This document shows, one piece after another, positions 11,387 through 60,197 of a stretch of 64,000 nt of DNA (its first letter is position 1; the number at the start of each line of letters is the position of its first letter). The notes below the pieces were generated by a model. It was not told the origin of the DNA and made no database searches. It saw only the letters and a list, made by a program, of their open reading frames with translations. A program made the translations under genes and the position numbers. The DNA is taken from positions 605,898-669,897 of the forward strand of contig NZ_BNAS01000001.1 in assembly GCF_014653785.1 (NCBI RefSeq), written 5' to 3'. The stretch comes from Promicromonospora soli (GTDB taxonomy: Bacteria; Actinomycetota; Actinomycetes; Actinomycetales; Cellulomonadaceae).

Positions 11387-11795
11387 GAAACGGCGGCTGA
11401 CCTGCGCTTACGTCTCGCGACGTTGTGCAGCGTTAGCCGCCGTTTCTCGTCATCCTGTGTAACTCTCGTGTAACTCCCCAGGCGGATCCCCGCTCCCCCG
11501 GCGTGATCCTCCGAAGCCCCTCGTGCTGGTCTTCAACCCGGCCATACTCCCGGCTCGGGGTCCCTGGTCCTCCGTCATCCGTTGGCGCGGGGCACGTCTC
11601 GGACATCGGTTCTGCCGTCAGTGCAACAGGTCCCCGCACATCGAGTCTGGGTGACGTGGTGTGCTCGGTCGGCGGGACCTGTTGCACTGCCGGCGGGTTC
11701 GGTGTCAGGGTCCCGGTGAAGCCAATGGATGACGGAGGACCAGGGGCACCGCGGTTCCCTCGATCCTCTTGATTCCCGGGGTGCCCGCCGGAGGC
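11387..11795 (-). repeat. hairpin-rich repeat element, copy A (inverted)
   Basis: About 400 bp matching 55254-55610 and 59397-59769 in reverse orientation; it holds no convincing gene. Landmarks: an end hairpin CGGCGGCTGAC (from 11390) with GTTAGCCGCCG; direct repeats GTGTAACTC at 11457 and 11468 spaced 11 bp; a perfect 16-bp inverted repeat CAGTGCAACAGGTCCC (11619-11634) and 11674-11689 with a 39-nt loop; and the end GGTGCCCGCCGGAGGC at about 11780-11795. It starts 34 bp after the glnA stop, so the end hairpin could also terminate glnA. It resembles the flank of an integration site. Confidence 0.8.
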
Positions 11796-51013: not shown

Positions 51014-51106
51014 TCCGCTATTGGAGCTCGACGCAGCGCTCCAGCGTCCGTCTCGGGACGCCAGCGGCGTATGAGGATCCGGTCCTGCCGCTCATCTGGA
51101 GGTTCG

Positions 51107-53881
51107 ATGAAGAACTGTCAGCACTCCGCCCCACCCTTGTCCGCCATGGCGTCCCTGGACGTGCGCCGGCGCACCGTGCTCCGCGGGGCCGCCGTCGCCG
51201 GGGCCGCAGCCGCCGTCGGCCCGGCTCTCCTGTCGGCCCCTACGGCGTCCGCAGTCATCCCACCTGCGCGCGGCGAGGTTGGTGCCGCGGCGTCGGAGTT
51301 CACGCTGGGCCAGGTCCGGCTCACGGCCAGCCGCTGGATGGACAACCAGAACCGCACGCTGTCCTACCTGCGCTTCGTGGACGTCGACCGGCTGCTGTAC
51401 AACTTCCGCGCCAACCACGGGCTGTCGACCGGCGGCGCCGCGGCACTGGGCGGGTGGGAGGCGCCGGACTTCCCCTTCCGCACGCACAGCCAGGGCCACT
51501 TCCTGTCGGCGTGGGCGCAGGCGTGGGCAGTGCTCGGGGACACGGTGTGCCGCGACAAGGCCGCCTACATGGTTGCCGAGCTGGCCAAGTGTCAGGCGAA
51601 CAACGCCGCCCGCGACTTCGCCGCGGGCTACCTGTCAGGCTTCCCCGAGTCGGACATCGGCGTCGCGGAGACGGGCACCGGCAACGGCAACGTCCCGTAC
51701 TACTCGCTGCACAAGACGCTCGCGGGCCTGCTCGACGTGTGGCGGTACATGGAGAACACACAGGCACGCGACGTGCTCCTGCGGATGGCCGCGTGGGTCG
51801 ACACCCGCACGGCCCGGCTGACGACCGCGCAGATGCAGACCACGCTGAGGATCGAGTTCGGCGGCATGAACGCGGTGCTTGCGGACCTGCACTTCATGAC
51901 CAACGACGCCCGCTGGCTGACCGTTGCCCAGCGGTTCGACCACGCCGCCGTGTTCGACCCGCTCGCAAACAACTCCGACCAGCTCGCGGGGCTGCACGCC
52001 AACACCCAGGTGCCCAAGTGGATCGGCGCCGCGCGCGAGTACAAGGCGACGGGCACCGCGCGGTACCGGGACATCGCCCGCAACGCCTGGGCGATCACGG
52101 TCGGCGCGCACACGTACGCCATCGGGGGCAACAGCCAGGACGAGCACTTCCGGGCACCGAACGCGATCTCCACGTTCCTGAGCAACGACGCCTGCGAGCA
52201 GTGCAACACGTACAACATGCTCAAGCTCACGCGCGAGCTGTGGTTGCTCGATGCGGAAAACGCCGGGTACTTCGACTACTACGAGCGCGCCCTGCTCAAC
52301 CACCTCATCGGGGCGCAGAACGCCGCCGACGCACACGGTCACGTCACGTACTTCACCCCGCTGCAGCCCGGCGGCCGGCGCGGCGTCGGCCCGAAGTGGG
52401 GTGGCGGTACGTGGAGCACCGACTACGCCTCCTTCTGGTGCTGCCAGGGCACCGGCCTCGAGACCAACACGAAGCTCATGGACTCGATCTACTTCCGCTC
52501 GGGCACCACGCTCACGGTGAACCTGTTCATGCCATCGGTCCTGACGTGGACCGAGCGGGGTATCACGGTCACCCAGACGACGTCGTACCCGGTCAGCGAC
52601 ACCACCACGCTCACCGTGACCGGCTCGGTCAGCGGCTCGTGGGCCCTGCGTGTGCGCATCCCGGCGTGGGCGACCGGGGCGACGGTCGCCGTGAACGGCG
52701 TGGCGCAGTCCATCGCGACCACACCCGGCACGTACGCGACGCTGACTCGGTCCTGGACCTCGGGTGACACCGTCACGGTCCGGCTGCCCATGGCGGTGCG
52801 GGTCGAGTCGTCGAACGACAACCCGAACGTCGCCGCGATCTTCTACGGACCGGTCGTCCTGGCCGGCAACTACGGCAGCAGCAGCCTGTCGGGTCCTCCG
52901 GCCCTCACGGCCTCCTCGGTGACCCGCACCAGCAGCAGCTCGCTCGCGTTCACCGCGACCGCGAACGGCACAGACGTCAACCTCGGGCCGTTCTACGACG
53001 CGCACGGCTTCAACTACACGGTGTACTGGTCGGTCAACGGTTCGGGCGCTGCTGGCTCCCCGTTCCGGCTGTTCAACGTCGCGAGCGGCATGGTGCTCGG
53101 CATCCAGAACGCGTCGACCGCGGACGGCGCCCTTGCGCTGCAGTGGGACGACAACGGCACGACGGACCACGACTGGGTGCCCGTCGTCTCGGGCACGTCG
53201 GTCAAGCTGCGCTGCGTGAACAGCGGCAAGGTGCTCGGCGTGGAGAACATGTCCACGGCTGACGGCGCGCGCGTCCTGCAGTGGGGCGACACGGGTACCG
53301 CCGACCACCTCTGGACGATCCTCGACAACGGCGACGGCACGCACCGGGTGCGCAACAACCACACGACCAAACTGCTCGGCACCGCGAGCGGCTCGACGGC
53401 CCGGGGCGCCCAGGTCGTGATGGACCCGGACAACGGCTCGGCGGACAACCGGTGGCGGTTCGTCCCGACGGGCGCCCGGCGGATCCAGAATGTCAACAGT
53501 GGCCAGGTGCTCGGAGTGACCGGCATGTCCACCGCCGACGGCGCGCTCGTGATCCAGTGGGGCGACACGGGTACCGCCGACCACCTGTGGACCGCCGTCG
53601 TCGGCACCAACGGGTACTTCCGGCTGCGCAACCAGCACACGGGCAAGGTCCTCGCGGTGGAGTCCGGCGGCACGGCCAACGGCACCCGCGCCGTGCAGAC
53701 GACCGACACCGGGGCCACGAGCCAGCAGTGGCGGCTCCGGTACACATCCGGTGAGACGTTCCGAATCCAGGCTGCAGGCGGGCGCGTTCTTGGCGTCCTG
53801 AACATGTCGACCGCTCAGGGCGCGCAGGTGCTCGTCTGGGACGACAACGGCACGAACGACCATCTCTGGCGCTTCGTGTGA
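51107..53881 (+). CDS. secreted GH127-type beta-L-arabinofuranosidase with ricin-like repeats
   Basis: A 924-residue secreted glycoside hydrolase. A twin-arginine signal (DVRRRTVLRGAAVAGAAAAV) leads to the catalytic domain (about 60-580) with the GH127 zinc/cysteine set: Glu364 and Cys366 in CEQCNTYNMLKL, and Cys445-Cys446 in FWCCQGTG, the latter pair containing the nucleophile in characterised enzymes. A beta-sandwich (about 470-640) follows. The C-terminal ~270 residues hold at least five ricin-type repeats (SGKVLGVENMSTADGA, ADHLW). Two repeats are nearly identical in DNA (around 53280 and 53553), so recombination between them is possible. It should release arabinose from plant glycans. 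ATG 51107 follows GGAGG. A LacI-type operator stands upstream. Confidence 0.88.
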   Translation: MKNCQHSAPPLSAMASLDVRRRTVLRGAAVAGAAAAVGPALLSAPTASAVIPPARGEVGAAASEFTLGQVRLTASRWMDNQNRTLSYLRFVDVDRLLYNFRANHGLSTGGAAALGGWEAPDFPFRTHSQGHFLSAWAQAWAVLGDTVCRDKAAYMVAELAKCQANNAARDFAAGYLSGFPESDIGVAETGTGNGNVPYYSLHKTLAGLLDVWRYMENTQARDVLLRMAAWVDTRTARLTTAQMQTTLRIEFGGMNAVLADLHFMTNDARWLTVAQRFDHAAVFDPLANNSDQLAGLHANTQVPKWIGAAREYKATGTARYRDIARNAWAITVGAHTYAIGGNSQDEHFRAPNAISTFLSNDACEQCNTYNMLKLTRELWLLDAENAGYFDYYERALLNHLIGAQNAADAHGHVTYFTPLQPGGRRGVGPKWGGGTWSTDYASFWCCQGTGLETNTKLMDSIYFRSGTTLTVNLFMPSVLTWTERGITVTQTTSYPVSDTTTLTVTGSVSGSWALRVRIPAWATGATVAVNGVAQSIATTPGTYATLTRSWTSGDTVTVRLPMAVRVESSNDNPNVAAIFYGPVVLAGNYGSSSLSGPPALTASSVTRTSSSSLAFTATANGTDVNLGPFYDAHGFNYTVYWSVNGSGAAGSPFRLFNVASGMVLGIQNASTADGALALQWDDNGTTDHDWVPVVSGTSVKLRCVNSGKVLGVENMSTADGARVLQWGDTGTADHLWTILDNGDGTHRVRNNHTTKLLGTASGSTARGAQVVMDPDNGSADNRWRFVPTGARRIQNVNSGQVLGVTGMSTADGALVIQWGDTGTADHLWTAVVGTNGYFRLRNQHTGKVLAVESGGTANGTRAVQTTDTGATSQQWRLRYTSGETFRIQAAGGRVLGVLNMSTAQGAQVLVWDDNGTNDHLWRFV

Positions 53882-53887
53882 GCCTGC

Positions 53888-53925
53888 CCGTGAGGCCCTC
53901 GACCCCACGGTCGGGGGCCTCACGG
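53888..53925 (+). terminator. terminator after the GH127 gene
   Basis: CCGTGAGGCCC (53888-53898) and GGGCCTCACGG (53915-53925) with inner pairing TCGACC/GGTCGG; starts 7 bp after the stop. Confidence 0.8.
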
Positions 53926-54041
53926 CCGCCCAGCAACGCGACGAAGCTCACTGATCCATGCCCCGGGCGATCTCCGGGTTGCGGACCAAGCAGCCAGGAA
54001 GCGGGCTCAGCGGGCCGGCTGATCAGGTCAGAGGCTCGAAA

Positions 54042-54071
54042 GCGGACGAGCCGGTCTGTACGCCGGGTTCT
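54042..54071 (-). other. rnpB 3'-end copy, outermost (putative att site 1)
   Basis: All 30 bases are identical to 59792-59821, the 3' end of the RNase P RNA gene, in the same orientation. The rest of rnpB is absent. It is the leftmost of four such copies and marks the probable outer end of the integrated region. Confidence 0.75.
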
Positions 54072-54142
54072 CCCGCACCGATGAGTTTCCCGCGCCGTGC
54101 CGGTCTCTGCACTCGAGACCGACTGACGGAAGGCATGGAGCC

Positions 54143-54706
54143 ATGCGGAAACTGCTCTACGGCATGAACCTGACCCTGGATGGCTACATCGCCGCGCCCG
54201 GCGACGACATCGGCTGGGGCGGGTCGAGCGACGAGCTGTTCCAGTGGTGGCTCGACCAGGAGCGGGCGATCGGGCTGTTCTTGTACGGGCGCAAGCTGTG
54301 GGAGATCATGAGTTCCCACTGGCCGACCGGCGACCAGCAGCCGGGCGCCACCCCGGCGCAGATCGAGTTCGCGCGGAACTGGCGGGACACGCCGAAGGTG
54401 GTGTTCTCGTCGACGACCGACAAGGTCGACTGGAACACTCGCCTGGTCGCCGGCGACGCGGTCGCGGAGATCACCCGACTCAAGGCCGAGGACGGTGGGC
54501 CGATGAGGGTCGGTGGCGCGACGCTCGCCGGGGCGGCCATGCGGGCCGGGCTGATCGACGAGTACGCGATCGTCACCCATCCGGTCCTGGTGGGCGGCGG
54601 CACACCGTTTTTCACCGCGCTGGACAGCTGGGTGAACCTGAACCTGGTGGAGACGCGGACGTTTCCCGGCGGTGTGGTCCTGAACAGGTACGAGACCAGG
54701 CGCTGA
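54143..54706 (+). CDS. dihydrofolate reductase-family (RibD C-terminal type) protein
   Basis: A 187-residue reductase-like protein of the DHFR/RibD_C superfamily: RKLLYGMNLTLDGYIAAPGD at the N-terminus, FLYGRKLWEIMSSHW, KVVFSSTTDKVDWNTRLV and DEYAIVTHPVLVGGGTPFF. Such proteins bind NADPH but are not true folate reductases (no folate-binding Asp/Glu in the usual place), and their substrates are unknown. It is the first gene of the cassette bounded by rnpB-like sites 1 and 2. ATG 54143 follows GGAAGG within about 8 bp. The cassette setting suggests horizontal gain; similar genes are common accessory genes in actinobacteria. Confidence 0.85.
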   Translation: MRKLLYGMNLTLDGYIAAPGDDIGWGGSSDELFQWWLDQERAIGLFLYGRKLWEIMSSHWPTGDQQPGATPAQIEFARNWRDTPKVVFSSTTDKVDWNTRLVAGDAVAEITRLKAEDGGPMRVGGATLAGAAMRAGLIDEYAIVTHPVLVGGGTPFFTALDSWVNLNLVETRTFPGGVVLNRYETRR

Positions 54707-54767
54707 GCGCGATTTTTCCGCGAGGGGCCCCTGATGGCCTACCGGCCCCGTCCGCTAACCTCCCGCT

Positions 54768-54827
54768 ATGACAGACGGAACGGGCCCTGAAAGCGAGCCA
54801 ATGACGGGCACCGGATGGGTCCGATGA
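54768..54827 (+). CDS. 19-codon leader peptide, coupled to next gene
   Basis: MTDGTGPESEPMTGTGWVR then TGA. The stop overlaps ATG 54824 of the membrane-protein gene as ATGA, the usual sign of translational coupling. No independent evidence for its expression, and it may instead be the separated start of a longer ancestral protein. Confidence 0.35.
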   Translation: MTDGTGPESEPMTGTGWVR

Positions 54828-55246
54828 CCTTCCGCTTCCCCTCCGAGAGCCCGGCTGAGACTGCGGCCTACCACAGGCGCCTACGGGCCCAGGGCACGTT
54901 CATCCTCTCGATCGCTTTCGTCCTGTTCTTCGCGATCACAGGCATGCCGTGGTGGTGGGTCGGGATCGTTACCGCGCTCTCCGGCGCCTCAGGCATCCCG
55001 ACGTTCACGGTCCTGATCACTGAGCGACGCTGGGCACGCGACCTGGCCCGCGTGGGAGCCCGACTCCGCCCCCGCCTGATCGCACTTGGGTTCGCCTACG
55101 GAGCCGCGATCCTGCTGCAGGGAATCGTCGGCGTGACACTCGGCACCTGGCCTGCGACAGCCCTTGCACCTGTGGCCTTCGCCGTCGAATTCCTCATCGC
55201 ACGGGAACGCCTCGGCACGCTGGCAACAGACGCGGACAAGCGGTAG
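54824..55246 (+). CDS. small integral membrane protein, unknown
   Basis: A 140-residue protein I do not recognise. From ATG 54824 it begins MTFRFPSESPAETAAYHRRL, then has hydrophobic segments at about residues 25-43 (TFILSIAFVLFFAITGMPWW), 45-63 (VGIVTALSGASGIPTFTVLI) and 90-130 (LIALGFAYGAAILLQGIVGV, then PATALAPVAFAVEFL), so three or four membrane helices. The C-terminus is short and charged. The start at 54815 would add three residues. The gene sits between the DHFR-like gene and repeat copy B, within cassette 1; a 19-codon reading frame overlaps its start. Confidence 0.55.
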   Translation: MTFRFPSESPAETAAYHRRLRAQGTFILSIAFVLFFAITGMPWWWVGIVTALSGASGIPTFTVLITERRWARDLARVGARLRPRLIALGFAYGAAILLQGIVGVTLGTWPATALAPVAFAVEFLIARERLGTLATDADKR

Positions 55247-55253
55247 GGCAAGA

Positions 55254-55610
55254 GCCTCCGGCGGGCACCCGGGAATCAAGAGGACCGAGGGAACTGCGGT
55301 GCCCCTGCCCCTCCGTCAACCATTGGCTTCACCGGGACCCTGACACCGAACCCGCCGGCAGTGCAACAGGTCCCGCCGACACCCAGCACCACCGCACCTG
55401 ACCATGACGGGCGAGACCTGTTGCACTGCCGGCAGAACCGACGTCCGAGACGTGCCCAGCGCAAACGGAGGACCGGGGACCCAGAGCTGGGAGTATGGCT
55501 GGGTCACAGACCCGCACTGGCGACCTGGGGACACGAGAGCTACACGGGAGCATGGGAAACGGCGGCAGACACTGCACAACGTCGTAAGACGAAATGCAGG
55601 TCAGCCGCCT
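55254..55610 (+). repeat. hairpin-rich repeat element, copy B
   Basis: Matches copy C (59397-59769) and inverted copy A (11387-11795). It begins GCCTCCGGCGGGCACC. A perfect 19-bp inverted repeat, GCCGGCAGTGCAACAGGTC (55354-55372) and 55415-55433, encloses 42 nt. ACAC repeats at 55531 and 55542 are spaced 11 bp. The end hairpin GGCGGC ... GCCGCC is followed by TTTTTT, so it could terminate transcription. It ends 22 bp before att site 2. No gene inside. Confidence 0.85.
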
Positions 55611-55632
55611 TTTTTGTTCCGACCGAGGTCGT

Positions 55633-55660
55633 GCGGACGAGCCGGTCTGTACGCCGGGTT
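55633..55660 (-). other. rnpB 3'-end copy (putative att site 2)
   Basis: 28 bases identical to the start of 59792-59821, same orientation. Identity with the rnpB locus also extends about 12 bases to the left (GACCGAGGTCGT), because copies B and C flank both sites. It is the junction between cassettes 1 and 2. Confidence 0.8.
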
Positions 55661-55777
55661 TCCCTGGCAGGTTTCACGGCCTGTCGGGGTACCCGGCGGA
55701 GACTGCCGAGAGCGTTGGAATTCTGCGGCTCGCGAGCGTTGGGGACCTTGAGGTCCGACGGCGCTTCGTGGGGCTCT

Positions 55778-55796
55778 TGCGGACTATCTGCGGACT
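55778..55796. other. direct repeats TGCGGACT spaced 11 bp (arm-type site candidate)
   Basis: TGCGGACT at 55778-55785 and 55789-55796. A 23-bp stretch including both (55774-55796) recurs exactly at 58231-58253. It lies 118 bp right of att site 2 and about 50 bp after a broken GTTGGAATTC palindrome (near 55722). The spacing of one helical turn fits accessory sites of a tyrosine integrase. Confidence 0.5.
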
Positions 55797-55899
55797 CGGC
55801 GCGGACTGGGCGGGGTTAGGGCGAACCCCTGAGACGTCCTGCGGTAGGCACCGGGTAATTCCGGTGCCTCGATGAACTACGAGCCCTAGATTGCGTTGC

Positions 55900-56823
55900 G
55901 TGAACCTCTCGCATCTCGGGACGCCGATCGGGCCGATGATCCGCGTCCACGGCGGGTTCGCCAACCGGATGTACCGGCTCGACACCGACCAGGGGTCGTT
56001 CGCGGTGAAGGAGCTCAACCTCGTGGACCGCCGCTGGACCTACCACGCCGAGGACGTGTTCAGGTTCGAGCGGGCGGCCTTCGCCGCCGGCATTCCGATG
56101 CCAGAGCCGATCTCGGCCAGCCACGACACGCTCGTACACCGGTGGGTCGAGGGAGAGAAGGTGCCCGAAGCGCCGGCGTCGGCGGCGTACGCGTTCGAGA
56201 TCGGTGAGATCCTCGCGCGCATCCACGCGCTCGACGTCGAGTGGACCGACGTGTCGGTCAAGGACCCGACGTCACGGGACTGGCCCGAGCTCGCCGAGCG
56301 GGCGGCGGCGACCGGACAGCCGTGGGCCGACGAGCTCGCCTCCCACGTCGAGACGTTCCTCGCGATTGCCCACTTCGTCGACACGTGCGAACGGCCAGGC
56401 CCCGTCGTGCTGACCCACAAGGACATCCAACCGTGGAACCTGCTCGCTCGAGCCGGTCGGCCGGTCCTGCTCGACTGGGAGCTCTCGGGGATGCTCGACC
56501 TGTCCGGTGAGCTCGGCTCGACCGCGCTGAGCCTCGCGAAAGGACCTGGCTTCGACAACATCGAGTCCACCATCTTCCGCTCGGTCCTCGACGGGTACGT
56601 CGCAGGGGGCGGGACGCTGCCGCCGTCCGGCCCAAGCTGGTTCGTCTTCATGATCGGCGGCTGGCTCGGGCACACGAGGTTTAACATCCTTCGCTGCCTC
56701 GCCGGTGCCGAGGCGAACACCGGTCCCGACCTCACGCAGTCGCACGAGTCCGCGCGGAACGGCATTCGCGGCCTCCCCGACATGTTCGGCCGACTTCCAG
56801 AACTCGAGGCGCTGCTCGTGTGA
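55900..56823 (+). CDS. APH-family phosphotransferase-like protein
   Basis: A 307-residue member of the aminoglycoside/choline kinase-like fold. The N-lobe contains HGGFANRMYRLDTDQGSFAV with the lysine in VKELNL; the catalytic loop is LTHKDIQPWNLL (family form HxDxxxxN, Asp and Asn retained), and the metal-binding Asp is in PVLLDWELSGML. The fold and active residues are intact, so it is probably an active small-molecule kinase; whether it confers antibiotic resistance cannot be said. GTG 55900 is chosen as start, with TTG 55891 and ATG 55936 as alternatives, and no clear ribosome site for any. It is the only gene of cassette 2. Confidence 0.75.
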   Translation: MNLSHLGTPIGPMIRVHGGFANRMYRLDTDQGSFAVKELNLVDRRWTYHAEDVFRFERAAFAAGIPMPEPISASHDTLVHRWVEGEKVPEAPASAAYAFEIGEILARIHALDVEWTDVSVKDPTSRDWPELAERAAATGQPWADELASHVETFLAIAHFVDTCERPGPVVLTHKDIQPWNLLARAGRPVLLDWELSGMLDLSGELGSTALSLAKGPGFDNIESTIFRSVLDGYVAGGGTLPPSGPSWFVFMIGGWLGHTRFNILRCLAGAEANTGPDLTQSHESARNGIRGLPDMFGRLPELEALLV

Positions 56824-56925
56824 CGGTGCCTCGTTTTCCGTGCTGGGTGCGCGGCGTAACGCGCGCGCTCCCGATCCCTCTCGGGGCGACGCCGCAGCAT
56901 GAATGCCCTGGTCAGGGCATTAAAA

Positions 56926-56955
56926 GCGGACGAGCCGGTCTGTACGCCGGGTTCT
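56926..56955 (-). other. rnpB 3'-end copy (putative att site 3)
   Basis: All 30 bases are identical to 59792-59821, same orientation. A small palindrome AATGCCCTG (56902-56910) with CAGGGCATT (56913-56921) lies directly left of it, perhaps the terminator of the APH-like gene. Junction between cassettes 2 and 3. Confidence 0.78.
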
Positions 56956-57094
56956 CCCGGAGGGTGTACCGGTATGTCTCGCGGTTGGTGTCCGACGAGT
57001 TGGTTGGGCACCGCGAGATCGTTGGAGTCTCGGGAATTCTTTGGGGTCGCAGCGCGGTGGTGAGGTTGGCGTCATACGGGCTCTGACGGCGTTC

Positions 57095-57114
57095 ATGTGT
57101 ACCCAATGTGTACC
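57095..57114. other. direct repeats ATGTGTACC spaced 11 bp (arm-type site candidate)
   Basis: ATGTGTACC at 57095-57103 and 57106-57114, 140 bp right of att site 3. A broken GTTGGA...GAATTC palindrome stands about 60 bp to the left, the same order as right of att site 2. The 397 bp from 56956 to 57352 otherwise hold only a hairpin and an unconvincing 82-codon frame. Confidence 0.45.
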
Positions 57115-57243
57115 GCTCGCCCGCAGTCGTCGCCGCCAACGTCGCCAGTAGGCTCTGCATGGTCCTCGCTCAAGGCGCGCTGGCTCCGGATGACCGCGCC
57201 CGATTGGAGAGGGTGGCAGCCCGTTCAAGCCGGGCCGAGTCCG

Positions 57244-57273
57244 GGGGCGCCCCGTCATCGCACGGGGCGCCCC
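57244..57273. terminator. perfect 12-bp hairpin
   Basis: GGGGCGCCCCGT (57244-57255) and ACGGGGCGCCCC (57262-57273), 6-nt loop, 79 bp before the next gene. It resembles a terminator of a gene that is no longer there. Confidence 0.5.
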
Positions 57274-57352
57274 AAGCCTTGGGTAGGCCCGGCAATTACC
57301 CGTCAACGACGGGTGACGATCAACGCACCAATGAGGCGGCTACGGTGCGCCC

Positions 57353-57739
57353 ATGAGTTACGACATCCTCGCGTTCGACCCGGCAGCGGTCGCCGACGCC
57401 GACTTCCCTGCGTGGTGGGAGGTGCAGTCGCAGTGGTCCGAGGACCACTCGTACGACGACCCAGATGTGACGACGGTGAATCTGCGGTCCTTCTACAACG
57501 AGCTGATCCAGACCTACCCGCCGATGAATGGTCCGGGCGCGCCGGCGTACGAGACCTGGCACAACGACATCGAGCTCGTAAGCCAGATGTCGGACTACAG
57601 CATCGGCACCTCGCTGGTCTACGGGGCGTTCTCCTGGAGCCAGGCACGGACGGCGCGAGCCACCTTCACCGCGCTGGCTGCCAAGCACGGAGTGGCTGTC
57701 GCCATGGTCAGCGACGACGGATCGATCCTGCGGCCGTGA
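57353..57739 (+). CDS. conserved hypothetical protein
   Basis: A 128-residue soluble, acidic protein beginning MSYDILAFDPAAVADADFPA, with WWEVQSQWSEDHSYDDPDVT, PAYETWHNDIELVSQMSDYS and a C-terminal Rossmann-like strand-helix (HGVAVAMVSDDGSIL). Proteins starting MxYDIxxFDP occur in many actinobacteria and their phages; function unknown. The ATG at 57353 is well placed at the start of similarity. Its stop overlaps the start of the next gene by one base (TGATG), so the two are coupled. First gene of cassette 3. Confidence 0.65.
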   Translation: MSYDILAFDPAAVADADFPAWWEVQSQWSEDHSYDDPDVTTVNLRSFYNELIQTYPPMNGPGAPAYETWHNDIELVSQMSDYSIGTSLVYGAFSWSQARTARATFTALAAKHGVAVAMVSDDGSILRP

Positions 57740-58065
57740 TGGAAGCCCGCCCGCAGATTGTGTGCCTGTGCGGCTCGACTCGATTCGCTGAGCAGTTCCG
57801 CGCGGTGAATCGTGACCTGACTCTCGCCGGGGCAATCGTCGTCGCACCCGCTGAGTTCGAGCACGCCGGCGACCAGATCACCGACGAACAGAACGCTGCG
57901 CTCGGCAAGCTGCACTTCGCGAAGATCGACCTTGCCGACCGCGTCATGGTGGTCAACCCGGGTGGGTACATCGGGGAGGCCACGCGACGTGAGATCCGGT
58001 ACGCCCACGAGACCGGAAAGCCGGTGGAGTACACCGACGCCCTCGACGGCGTCATCAACCCCTGA
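57739..58065 (+). CDS. nucleoside 2-deoxyribosyltransferase-like protein
   Basis: A 108-residue protein with the fold of nucleoside 2-deoxyribosyltransferases and related nucleotide-binding proteins: IVCLCGSTRFAEQF at the N-terminus (phosphate-binding turn), KIDLADRVMVVNPGGYIGEA (NxGGYxGE) and ATRREIRYAHETGKPVEYTD. Short versions like this are typical of actinobacterial accessory and phage DNA, where they may process nucleotides. It shares one base with the preceding gene's stop and probably forms a two-gene unit with it. The catalytic Glu (GE) is present. Confidence 0.7.
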   Translation: MEARPQIVCLCGSTRFAEQFRAVNRDLTLAGAIVVAPAEFEHAGDQITDEQNAALGKLHFAKIDLADRVMVVNPGGYIGEATRREIRYAHETGKPVEYTDALDGVINP

Positions 58066-58160
58066 CCACGCTGGTCCGCGCAGAGTCCCTTATCGCCATC
58101 GACGCCGGCGACAGTTCGTGGATCGCAGTCCGGCCCACCGGCATGTCTGACAAACGCGAC

Positions 58161-58200
58161 AACGGCCGAGAACGTTGGAATTCCAACGTTCCCGGCCGTT
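58161..58200. repeat. 40-bp palindrome with GTTGGAATTCCAAC core
   Basis: Arms AACGGCCGaGAACGTTGGAA and TTCCAACGTTCcCGGCCGTT meet at 58180/58181 with a single mismatched pair. Same core as 14156-14189. Possible terminator for the gene pair ending at 58065, but its repeated position about 35-50 bp before 11-bp-spaced repeats suggests an integration-site component. Confidence 0.75.
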
Positions 58201-58234
58201 GGTCGTGTTGGGGTCGGGGCTGGTGCGGACCTCT

Positions 58235-58253
58235 TGCGGACTATCTGCGGACT
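58235..58253. other. second TGCGGACT pair spaced 11 bp
   Basis: TGCGGACT at 58235-58242 and 58246-58253, identical over 23 bp to 55774-55796 and again preceded by a GTTGGAATTC palindrome. No rnpB-like core lies nearby, so this may be a remnant of another junction. The remaining bases to 58500 contain no gene I can support. Confidence 0.45.
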
Positions 58254-58507
58254 GCGATCGCGTCGTCAATCCTTGGTGGTGCCCGGGGCTCATGCGGACT
58301 TCCGGTCGGTTATCCCTGCGTTGACTGGCAAGGTCACCTTCCAACCCACGATCCGCCCGAAGATGAGGCAGCCATCGTGGAGTTGACCTCTACTAGATCA
58401 AGGCGCGCCGCCGGGCGCCGGGTGAAGGGCCCCCAAGGGCGCGGCGGGCGCGGGCGCCCTTGCGCCTCCCCCACCCGGCACCTCCGGCGCTCACCCCACA
58501 CATGACG

Positions 58508-58541
58508 AAGACGGTCCTGGATCACTCGCCAGGACCGTCTT
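58508..58541 (-). terminator. 13-bp stem terminator
   Basis: AAGACGGTCCTGG (58508-58520) and CCAGGACCGTCTT (58529-58541), perfect, 8-nt loop, starting 16 bp beyond the stop of the minus-strand gene at 58558. T-rich on both sides (TTCGTT on the + strand). Confidence 0.75.
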
Positions 58542-58557
58542 TCGTTGCTCAAAGCTA

Positions 58558-59076
58558 CTAGGAGAGGATGCCAGCCTGGAGTCGCGTGGCGTGCTGTCGA
58601 ACGATCTGCTTGAGTTCCACCGGAAGATTCGCCATGTGTTCCTGACGCTTGGCTCGCCACGACTCCTGCGTGAACGTCTCTGAACCAGCGGCCTTAGAGA
58701 GCGCATAAACCGCACGGTCGATGCGACGTGCAGTGTCAACGACATCCTCCGGGTCATTTACCTCGATCGCCACGAGTGCGCTGTTCAGCCGATCTACTAT
58801 CGGCCAGACCTCCACCTTCTCTACCGTCGACTTCAGTTCGGATTCAGCCAGCGCAAGCTGCCTGAGCGAGGTGATGCCATGGTAGGTGGCAGCAAGGAAC
58901 TGGCCCACGCGTTCGGTCATCGCGATGCGCCTCTGCTCCGCAGCCCTCGATTCATCAAGCATCTTCGCTGAGTCCGTCTGCTGGCGGGTAGTGAGCCACG
59001 ACCCTAGAGTTGCGATTCCCGCGCCGACGATCGTGCCGACGAGAACAGAAGCAGCGTCTGGATCGATCGTGGGCAT
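58558..59076 (-). CDS. small membrane-anchored helical protein, unknown
   Basis: A 172-residue protein of no known family. ATG 59076 gives MPTIDPDAASVLVGTIVGAG with one N-terminal membrane helix (about residues 9-30) followed by a cytoplasmic helical region (TRQQTDSAKMLDESRAAEQRR, LAESELKSTVEKVEVWPIVD) to the C-terminus. Similar single-helix proteins with a coiled cytoplasmic tail are frequent in actinobacterial genomic islands, sometimes next to defence genes, but I cannot assign a function. Its codon usage looks less GC-extreme than that of core genes. It is read opposite to the other cassette 3 genes and is followed by a strong terminator. Confidence 0.6.
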   Translation of the reverse strand: MPTIDPDAASVLVGTIVGAGIATLGSWLTTRQQTDSAKMLDESRAAEQRRIAMTERVGQFLAATYHGITSLRQLALAESELKSTVEKVEVWPIVDRLNSALVAIEVNDPEDVVDTARRIDRAVYALSKAAGSETFTQESWRAKRQEHMANLPVELKQIVRQHATRLQAGILS

Positions 59077-59172
59077 GCCGAGAACATACCGCGTGGTACC
59101 GGCTGCATCTGATCGTCGCTGCTCGGACAAGGCCGAGCAGCGACTCGGGCCTCGCGATTCACCGGACACGGC

Positions 59173-59396
59173 CTAGTACTACGGCCGTAGATTGGGGCTG
59201 TGGCCTGCCGTTTCGCGTCTACGGTAGTGGGCGGTGCGGGCTCGGTGTTGGTGGCGTCGTAGCCAGCGGGACCAGGACAGGATTTGCTCGGTGGTCGCGC
59301 GGGTGCGAGACGGCGCGCCACCAGCACCGAGCCCACTCCCAGCGACGAGACGACATCACCCACGGTCAGCGACCTGATCTACGGCTGTAGTACTAG
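59173..59396. mobile_element. MITE-like element with 20-bp terminal inverted repeats
   Basis: CTAGTACTACGGCCGTAGAT (59173-59192) and, inverted, 59377-59396 match at 19 of 20 positions. A further inner inverted pair, 59238-59256 and 59316-59334, matches at 18 of 19. At 224 bp without a gene it fits a miniature inverted-repeat element or remnant. It abuts repeat copy C directly. No target duplication is certain (CTAG at each tip). No related transposase is present in the window. Confidence 0.7.
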
Positions 59397-59769
59397 TGCC
59401 TCCGGCGGGCACCGCAGGAGTCAAGAGGATCGAGGGGACCGCGGTGTCCCTGCTCCTACGTCATCCATTGGCTTGATCGGGACCTGACACCGAACCCGCC
59501 GGCAGTGCAACAGGTCCCGCCCGACCAGAGAGCACCACCGCACCTGGAGCTGGACGGCGGGACCTGTTGCACTGCCGGCAGAACCGATGTCCGAGACGTG
59601 CCCGCGCCAACGGATGACGGAGGATCAGGGACCCCGAGCCGGGAGTATGGCTGAGGCCCAGACCCGCACTGGCGACCTGGGGAATTACACGAGAGTTACA
59701 CGGGAGCATGAGAAACGGCGGCAAACACTGCACAACGTCGAGAGACGAAAATGCAGGTCAGCCGCCGTT
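59397..59769 (+). repeat. hairpin-rich repeat element, copy C
   Basis: Third copy, starting GCCTCCGGCGGGCACC. It has the longest perfect stem of the family: 24-bp arms at 59498-59521 and 59556-59579, 34-nt loop. TTACAC at 59685 and 59696 are spaced 11 bp. The end hairpin GGCGGC ... GCCGCC ends 22 bp before the rnpB 3' end, the same distance as in copy B to att site 2. No gene inside. Confidence 0.85.
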
Positions 59770-59790
59770 CTGCGGTTGCGACCGAGGTCG

Positions 59791-60197
59791 TGCGGACGAG
59801 CCGGTCTGTACGCCGGGTTCTGTTCCCGCGCAGGGTTACCCCCGCGCGGGCGACGGTCATCCATCTAGGCCCTGCGTTGCCGCAGGGCTCGAGCGGTCTA
59901 CCCGACTGTGCCTCTCCGAAGAGAGTCGGGCGGGCAGCCCTCAAACACAGTCTGTCTGACCTTGCTCCAGGTGGGGTTTACCTAGCCGCTACCGTCACCG
60001 GCAGCGCTGGTGGTCTCTTACACCACCGTTTCACCCTTACCCCCGGTCCTGGGACCGGAGGCGGTCTGTTTTCTGTGGCACTGTCCCGCGGGTCGCCCCG
60101 GGTGGCTGTTAACCACCACCTTGCCCTGTGGAGCCCGGACGTTCCTCGGCGGGTGCCCGGGGGCACCCAACGCGACCGTCCGACCGACTCGTCCGCA
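59791..60197 (-). ncRNA. rnpB: RNase P RNA (bacterial type A)
   Basis: The catalytic RNA that trims the 5' leader of pre-tRNAs. Read on the minus strand, the conserved core is clear: GAGGAACGTCCGGGCTCC near the 5' end (P4 region), then GGGTAAGGGTGAAACGGTGG and AACAGAACCCGGCGTACAG near the 3' end. The termini pair as P1: GCGGACGAG at the 5' end with CTCGTCCGC at the 3' end. About 407 nt, normal for actinobacteria; end points are estimated from P1. The gene is intact and its last 30 bases also form the core of four putative attachment sites, so insertions to its left have rebuilt its 3' end. Confidence 0.95.

Follow-up and report, generated by a model that had tools for sequence, protein, structure and literature searches.

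Accretion of putative integrative elements and their remnants at the 3' end of rnpB in Promicromonospora

Overview

The region downstream of rnpB in Promicromonospora soli is very probably an accretion array of integrative elements that entered at the 3' end of this gene, as judged from sequence comparison. The window (the whole stretch of 64,000 nucleotides that was analyzed) contains one rnpB gene and three displaced copies of its end (Table 1), and the units between these copies look like decayed, CIME-like remnants with one or few genes. In the proposed mechanism, a tyrosine integrase would recombine a core of ~28 bp in the attP of an element with the same core at the rnpB end; the element would bring along a replacement for the lost rnpB end, and the original end, now displaced, would become the far boundary. 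Each later element would enter at the rnpB-side core and move its predecessors outward, all in one orientation. The core seems to serve at least two types of integrase with different arm sites, namely, A (paired TGTGTACC) and B (paired TGCGGACT), with repeats spaced 11 bp. Most array units, including those of the window, lack an integrase and a relaxase but may keep a core and a partial arm.

Table 1. Features of the rnpB array in the window (G000, the genome of the window; other G numbers, compared genomes).
Feature	Position	Strand	Remarks
RibD_C/DHFR-like reductase, 187 aa	54143-54706	+	PF01872, E 1.8e-20
Probable membrane protein (by reading), 143 aa	54815-55246	+	No Pfam or NCBIfam match
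APH/thiamine-kinase-like phosphotransferase, 310 aa	55891-56823	+	PF01636, E 2.4e-19
128-aa protein, first of gene pair	57353-57739	+	79-95% identical in G002, G003, G008, G009
108-aa protein, second of gene pair	57739-58065	+	Weak DUF4406/DUF7768 similarity, below cut-off
Probable membrane protein (by reading), 203 aa	58558-59169	-	No significant family
rnpB, RNase P RNA (class A), target gene	59793-60191	-	RF00010, 297 bits
Core within intact rnpB 3' end (rnpB-side junction)	59792-59821	+
Displaced core	56926-56955	+	30/30 identical to rnpB-end core
Displaced core	55633-55660	+	28/28 identical to rnpB-end core
Displaced core, outermost	54042-54071	+	30/30 identical; no adjoining A- or B-type arm
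Dispersed ~370-bp repeat with long inverted repeat	59398-59769	+	Adjoins rnpB core
Second copy of dispersed repeat	55254-55608	+	86%; adjoins core 55633
Type-A arm, ~160 bp, non-coding	56954-57116	+	Paired TGTGTACC at 57096-57103, 57107-57114
Type-B arm, ~150 bp	55661-55812	+	Paired TGCGGACT at 55778-55785, 55789-55796
Remnant of integrase-side end	56890-56925	+	No arm sites left
Core-less type-B-like arm inside third interval	~58113-58253	+	TGCGGACT pair at 58235, 58246

Copies of the rnpB End in the Window

An earlier note, made from the letters of this DNA, had stated that the last ~30 bp of rnpB recur three times in the same orientation on its 3' side, and that the resulting intervals measure ~1.6, 1.3, and 2.9 kb. 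Both statements were borne out by exact matches of 28-30 bp. A search for GCGGACGAGCCGGTCTGTACGCCGGGTT that tolerated up to three mismatches yielded four matches in the window, all exact (at 54042, 55633, 56926, and 59792), and the displaced cores lie in one orientation downstream of rnpB, with start-to-start distances of 1591, 1293, and 2866 bp. The whole 5.38-Mb genome contained only these four matches at the same tolerance, and 100 dinucleotide shuffles contained none.

The copies match the end of an RNA gene and might thus be functional pieces, such as terminators or parts of regulatory or expressed RNAs. However, Rfam gave no match at the copies at the gathering threshold, a search at E<=1 over 53900-59800 returned only two eukaryotic miRNA models, both sub-threshold and located at inverted repeats, and substitutions are present in several of the displaced cores of relatives; a functional role of this kind is extremely improbable. 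Each of the 13 Promicromonospora genomes harbored a single rnpB, so the displaced copies are not additional RNase P genes, and extra RNA genes were ruled out.

The cores at 55633 and 59792 also have ~390 bp to their left in common (85.5% identity), which could be obtained by duplication. An origin of the copies by slippage, unequal exchange, or gene conversion, with no integrase involved, is nevertheless highly unlikely, because spacing and content vary between species, integrase genes or fragments occur in 7 of 19 intervals, and arm repeats are located at fixed distances from the cores. The shared flank is mostly a dispersed intergenic repeat and was therefore rejected as an rnpB-specific arm.

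Variation of the Locus Among Relatives

The core scan of the genus allowed nine mismatches, and 32 cores were accepted, including three weak ones with flank support (G003 20747, six mismatches; G008 24786, eight; G005 13276, four). Reverse-strand matches were dropped, as were forward candidates with six to nine mismatches and no arm (among them, six-mismatch candidates in G006 and G009 and an eight-mismatch candidate in G003). Ten of the 13 genomes contained one to three accepted displaced cores beside the single rnpB, at differing spacings, which marks the 3' side of rnpB as an insertion hotspot in these 13 species. Gene order flanking the array was conserved as far as the fetched stretch extends, and the content in between varied. 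An occupied and unoccupied pair was also identified: the sequence beyond the element in P. iranensis (G003) corresponds to that left of rnpB in G012 (98.5% over 400 bp). The identical order of genes and repeats in all relatives that, according to the earlier note, would speak against integration was thus not observed.

The rnpB genes of G005, G006, and G008 show two base differences from a displaced core that keeps the usual 3' end. This combination of a variant rnpB end and a usual end in the displaced copy, found in three species, suggests that the end of rnpB is probably exchanged upon integration; alternatively, the species could have inherited the variant end from a common ancestor. The variant end is also present in one displaced core of G008. 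The P1 helix was fully paired (13/13) in all 13 genomes, including those with the variant end. Displaced ends, the G003/G012 pair, and variant ends, together with the integrase-bearing elements and arm repeats described below, support the earlier proposal that elements integrate at the 3' end of this RNA gene and rebuild it.

Integrase-Bearing Elements

Tyrosine integrases beside a copy of the core, which the earlier note had suggested looking for, are present in relatives. Genes for an integrase, a small HTH protein, and a relaxase were located between a displaced core and rnpB in G003, G005, G006, and G008. In G003, G006, and G008, matches to PF00589, HTH_17, and the TrwC relaxase family were confirmed (PF08751, E <=3.7e-86, accompanied by helicase domains), PF00589 scored above the cut-off, and the catalytic motifs of the integrases (R, HxxR, H, and Y) were intact. 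These three elements possess both an integrase and a relaxase of their own, two of the three features by which IMEs are recognized, the third being the lack of a full conjugation apparatus; the fuller rnpB elements look like IMEs with an integrase, an Xis-like HTH protein, and a TrwC-type relaxase. In G003, only 23 bp separate the end of the integrase gene from the rnpB core; the corresponding distances in G006 and G008 are 2.7 and 5.5 kb, with genes in between.

The integrase of G005 is disrupted and that of G137 is frameshifted. Integrase similarity in the 7 of 19 genus intervals ranged from whole genes down to fragments, a decay series. Outside the genus, relatives of these integrases occur beside a core in G032, G132, G137, and G153. 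The rnpB-linked integrases, which presumably act at the rnpB-end core, cluster (7 of 500 shuffles were as low), yet they do not form a supported clade. Genomes G128, G129, and G178 each contained two cores without a match to the rnpB-linked integrases between them, which calls for a different integrase or route in these genomes.

Attachment Arms and Putative Arm Sites

The type-A arm of the window shares 71-86% identity (aligned over at least 73 bp) with the DNA on the corresponding side of displaced cores from other genomes, and homology stops ~160 bp from the core, where the cargo diverges. The type-B arm matches the distal end of the interval that holds the integrase in P. iranensis (86.8% identity over 152 bp), and the 36 bp at 56890-56925 are 86% identical to the integrase-side DNA of the rnpB core in the same species. 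The core-less, arm-like stretch inside the third interval is a probable fused cassette boundary, and this interval therefore probably represents two fused units. The G003 interval likewise contains a core-less type-A arm, and thus may be composite.

The paired repeats are putative arm sites that would bind the integrases. Pairs adjoin about half of the displaced cores in the genus genomes, with TGTGTACC at about +139/+150 and -64/-53 and TGCGGACT at +117/+128 and -64/-53 from the cores. Scanning of 458 kb revealed 12 A pairs and 11 B pairs in the orientation of the rnpB core and none in the opposite orientation; an accepted core lies beside 10 of the 12 A pairs and only 5 of the 11 B pairs. 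Across the two junctions of one interval, putative sites were detected on both sides in G006 and G007 (type A) and in G003 (type B), which would correspond to the attachment site of a lambda-type tyrosine integrase, that is, a core flanked on either side by repeated arm-type sites. In G008, A sites occur at rnpB and B sites at the innermost displaced core. At 8 of 13 rnpB junctions, including that of the window, no A or B site was detected within 350 bp. Two-sided arm sites are absent from the window cores, all of which lack A and B sites in direct orientation within 350 bp on the integrase side.

Gene Content and Status of the Window Units

The DHFR-like gene has matches of 70-93% identity in eight other genus genomes (tblastn); it is present in 9 of 13 genomes at >=70% identity, and the window is the only case in which two accepted cores enclose it. 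It is a common resident of the hotspot. In a comparison of 13 regions and one G147 contig, the 143-aa and 203-aa proteins occurred only in the genome of the window. The APH-like protein is 84-90% identical in G147 (another genus), G005, and G008, and its unit (968 bp of DNA) is 89.4% identical to that of G147, where homology stops 4 bp from a core. The 108-aa protein is 87-90% identical in G002, G003, and G008; its similarity to DUF4406 (E 0.014) falls below the Pfam cut-off, and the earlier label of this gene pair as deoxyribosyltransferase-like is weak. The earlier claim that each interval carries its own cargo applies in part, given the wide distribution of the DHFR-like gene.

As had been claimed, no integrase was detected inside the intervals: tblastn with four integrases gave no match in any of the three, and no integrase or transfer Pfam domain was found in the six interval ORFs scanned. 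The window units are flanked by four identical cores and, like CIMEs, contain no integrase or transfer genes; a CIME also has attL and attR with arms, whereas arms with paired sites adjoin the window cores only to the right of 55633 (B) and 56926 (A). With incomplete arms, these units are described as CIME-like and are not classed as CIMEs.

The small cassettes might still be mobile, lacking an integrase of their own but moved in trans by rnpB-specific integrases of incoming IMEs. Conserved arms of ~150-160 bp followed directly by different cargo, an APH-like unit that adjoins a core in two genera, and the two ends of cassette II of the window, one with a type-B arm and one with a type-B-like remnant, are consistent with such mobility. 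On the other hand, the integrase-side arm in the window has no arm sites, the APH-like unit in G005 and G008 is not bounded by accepted cores, and intermediates with integrase fragments in relatives fit decay. A resident helper was rejected, as the sequence in this genome that best matches the P. iranensis integrase is only 33% identical (on a 7.8-kb contig). Present mobility is therefore considered unlikely. Between the two options offered earlier, dependence on a helper or loss of the integrase, loss is the better reading, as indicated by the decay series in relatives, the lack of two-sided sites at window cores, and the integrase-side arm at 56926, with just 36 bp of homology left. An incoming helper might mobilize the remaining units. 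A broader form, in which rnpB is a shared dock for integron-like exchange, with integrase-less units of a core, a ~160-bp arm, and one or few genes captured, stacked, and moved between genera by two incoming integrase classes, each event swapping the 3' strand of P1, is doubtful and regarded as quite unlikely.

Wider Sampling and Free Forms

A 21-mer pattern that misses many rnpB genes matched 75 of 394 genomes in a class sample. Four genomes other than that of the window had two matches each; these share a contig in G373 and G607 and lie on different contigs in G317 and G428, and the paired matches of G373 and G607 have no PF00589 match between them. In a family sample, 74 of 221 genomes matched, and 8 of the 61 matching genomes outside the genus had two matches, which in G032 and G147 are on separate contigs. 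Free or phage forms were not found: neither an excised circle nor a free attP turned up, with no match to the core plus CTCCCG in viral contigs and no match in plasmid and phage sequences.

Comparison With Known Systems

RNase P RNA is essential. Mobile elements apparently use the 3' end of its single-copy gene and in three species have probably replaced it; rnpB is thus a likely additional target beside tRNA and tmRNA genes. With the graded series from element to remnant and the two arm motifs on one core, the evolution of attachment sites and the process of accretion become amenable to tests in soil bacteria. Accretion of IMEs and CIMEs is itself of a known kind. SCC elements of staphylococci form composite arrays at one gene and include recombinase-less units, as in the rnpB array, but differ in their serine recombinases and protein-coding target.

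Among the literature matches listed, which cover subscription journals thinly, none was found to describe integration at rnpB; in the excerpts examined for the gene, rnpB was absent or appeared as a phylogenetic marker, in a cited title, or as a promoter or primer name. A large island survey distinguishes, in the part covered, tRNA/tmRNA, coding, and intergenic sites (PMC12424338), and rnpB sites would presumably count as intergenic in this scheme.

According to excerpts of the following papers, CIMEs and microCIMEs, mostly of streptococci, are similarly decayed, with att sites kept, integrase and transfer genes gone, and tandem arrangement with IMEs, whereas their targets are tRNA or protein genes and the array described here involves rnpB and two arm motifs at one core (PMC5704250, PMC7563491, PMC7168690). 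Actinobacterial AICEs also have a tyrosine integrase, an RDF, and integration at RNA gene 3' ends, with some tandem pairs, but they occupy chiefly tRNA 3' ends, in contrast to the rnpB target and TrwC-type relaxase of the present elements (PMC3218068). The ssrA islands of Dehalococcoides likewise lie in tandem on the downstream side of an essential RNA gene present in single copy, with 20-bp copies of the 3' end of this gene as their boundaries; 15 of them lack an integration module and have been discussed as possible cis-mobilizable elements (PMC3146451). They differ in their tmRNA target and CcrB-like serine integrase (PMC3146451), whereas the rnpB array is associated with tyrosine integrases and paired arm-type repeats.

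Copies of the rnpB 3' End and the rnpB Hotspot

The last 28 bp of rnpB, the RNase P RNA gene, had four exact occurrences in a motif scan of the window, and these were all of the occurrences in the whole genome; shuffled sequence yielded zero matches. As the earlier note had claimed, all four cores (copies of the last ~28-30 bp of rnpB) shared a single orientation and the three displaced ones were located on the 3' side of rnpB, with the match reaching 30 bp in two of the three. Additional RNase P genes were ruled out as an identity for the displaced copies because each of the 13 genomes in the Promicromonospora set harbored exactly one rnpB.

The 15 to 56 kb surrounding rnpB were compared between the window's genome and the 12 other genus genomes (G001-G012), with gene order judged by clustering. 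Left of rnpB, gene order was conserved as far as each compared stretch extended, including one cluster in 9/13 genomes, a phosphoglycerate-mutase-like cluster in 7/13, and a glutamine-synthetase-like cluster in 5/13 (the latter two names were assigned by reading); none of these was found within the compared stretches of G005, G006, and G008. A yaaA-like gene was present on the right side in 11/13 genomes, and the sequence immediately 3' of rnpB differed among genomes. The 32 accepted cores, a count that leaves out three more sites distant from rnpB (G006, G008, and G012), comprised 13 within rnpB and 19 displaced ones. Downstream of rnpB, where the earlier note had proposed to look in relatives for loci with and without cassettes, displaced cores were spread over 10 of the 13 genomes, and none was accepted in the compared stretches of G001, G004, and G009 (a 6-mismatch candidate in G009 was dropped). 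The rnpB locus is an insertion hotspot. Past the rnpB-distal core of the element in G003 (P. iranensis UTMC 3169), 400 bp showed 98.5% identity to the 400 bp directly abutting rnpB in G012: the two genomes present one junction in its occupied and unoccupied states.

Putative Attachment Arms

To the right of displaced cores, conserved non-coding DNA took one of two forms, type A spanning ~160 bp and type B ~150 bp, past which the cargo diverged. The arms terminated in two copies, 11 bp apart, of TGTGTACC (type A) or TGCGGACT (type B). Both A sites occurred to the right of 7 of the 19 displaced cores, both B sites at 3, and a lone A site at 1; the remaining 8 had no A or B site within 350 bp to the right, several of them keeping partial arm homology. 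At the rnpB junction, sites at about -64 and -53 were of type A in G006, G007, and G008 and of type B in G003, G005 had a single site, and 8/13 junctions had none. Within 458 kb, 12 A and 11 B pairs were oriented as the rnpB core and none was reversed; 10/12 A and 5/11 B pairs adjoined an accepted core, and six of the others formed part of a core-less, type-B-like unit that recurs among the genomes and is present in the window as well. Paired arm repeats flanking a core are what a lambda-type integrase site would be expected to show, and we infer that the arm repeats bind integrase.

The core-less unit, starting AGTTCGTGGATCGCAGTCCGG, occurred in 8/13 genomes (the window and one place per hotspot in G003, G005, G006, G008, G010, G011, and G012). 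The next 170 bp contained two TGCGGACT sites in six genomes and one in two; the left boundary was abrupt and the rnpB core absent in the six contexts read. The unit could be an additional attachment core, or a core that has decayed.

Across whole genus genomes, arm matches were mostly at the rnpB hotspot; strong matches elsewhere were G006:C5:47242 (type A) and G008:C1:1925356 (type B), both adjoining a core with slight changes, with weaker partial matches on other contigs. Attachment-like sites at G006:C5:47398 (A arm) and G008:C1:1925499 (B arm) were remote from rnpB, in reverse orientation, and had slightly changed cores; integrase fragments adjoined the G008 site.

Integrases and the rnpB 3' End

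Tyrosine integrases located between a displaced core and rnpB were found in relatives, where the earlier note had suggested a search for integrases next to a core. The 24.4 kb from displaced core to rnpB in G003 encoded a 430-aa tyrosine integrase, whose gene ended 23 bp from the rnpB core, a 1211-aa TrwC-type relaxase, and a small HTH_17/AlpA-like protein that is likely an excisionase. Counterparts of all three were present in G005, G006, and G008 (Pfam-confirmed for G006 and G008). Catalytic motifs were present in the integrases of G003, G006, and G008, and that of G005 was disrupted within its C-terminal half. Integrase similarity was detected in 7/19 genus intervals, namely these four elements plus three intervals holding fragments (G007, G012, and the G003 P450 cassette); the other 12 had none, including all three window intervals, consistent with the absence of an integrase noted previously. 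G004 also contained an integrase fragment adjoining rnpB. Outside the genus, G032 encoded a long type-A relative, in which the first arginine motif was not matched by the pattern used and the other catalytic motifs were found; G137 contained a frameshifted integrase, G132 and G153 contained fragments, and no similarity to these integrases was detected in G128, G129, and G178. A P450 gene and a P450/enoyl-CoA-hydratase fusion gene, identified by Pfam on the G003 copy, were paired in the hotspots of seven of the 13 genomes (G001, G003, G004, G009, G010, G011, and G012), with integrase fragments adjoining in G003, G004, and G012.

In G005, G006, and G008, rnpB ended in GGCUGGC..., and a displaced core retained the GACCGGC... 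form; P1 pairing was 13/13 in these and likewise in the other ten genomes. Because all three genomes carried type-A integrases, the variant end was probably supplied by the element. Common descent of the three could also account for it; the outermost displaced core of G008 likewise bears the variant end.

The Window Array and Its Cargo

Features of the window around the rnpB array, in order
Feature	Position	Strand	Remark
Dispersed repeat	11389-11795		
GH127 beta-L-arabinofuranosidase gene	51071-53881		936 aa, ricin-type lectin repeats; immediately outside array
Core	54042		outermost
DHFR-like gene leader	54072-54142		
DHFR-like and membrane genes			
Dispersed repeat	55254-55608		
Core	55633		type-B arm to its right
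APH-like kinase gene			
Type-B integrase-side remnant			short
Core	56926		with type-A arm
Two-gene pair			
Core-less type-B-like arm	58113-58253		between two-gene pair and membrane gene
Membrane gene			
Dispersed repeat	59398-59769		
rnpB	59793-60191	minus	only one in window

The three intervals described in the earlier note each carried different cargo, and the third also held the core-less arm. In G008, the two-gene pair likewise followed a type-A core and was succeeded by the core-less arm and then a degenerate core bearing a type-B arm of the usual form, an order which supports a boundary near the core-less arm that would have been lost or fused in the window. The DHFR-like gene was present in 9/13 genomes and was flanked by accepted cores in the window only. 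Its leader had an abrupt left edge near CCGATGA with unrelated DNA upstream in several genomes, as if the gene moved as a unit. The APH-like protein was 84-90% identical to counterparts in G147 (another genus), G005, and G008, and the G147 homology stopped 4 bp from a core.

The dispersed intergenic repeat spans ~370 bp and includes a long inverted repeat (GCCGGCAGTGCAACAGGTCCCGCC). It was matched in at least 22/221 family genomes, a minimum because scoring was limited to three candidates per genome. One copy directly followed a glutamine-synthetase-like gene, and in another genome a copy adjoined an apparent tRNA 3' end, as judged by eye.

Mechanism and Known Relatives

The array very probably arose by integrase-driven accretion (tandem stacking) at rnpB, in support of the earlier proposal that elements integrate into the rnpB 3' end and rebuild it each time. 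We prefer to regard the window units as decayed rather than still mobile, because no int-side arm sites were found for them and no close relative of these integrases was found elsewhere in the genome.

No report of rnpB as an integration site was found in the open-access literature searched, and the convergence of two arm motifs on a single core is, to our knowledge, unusual. Known relatives of the rnpB array are the accretion of CIMEs (remnants keeping attachment sites) and IMEs (integrative elements with integrase and relaxase), and the ssrA islands of Dehalococcoides, which it resembles.
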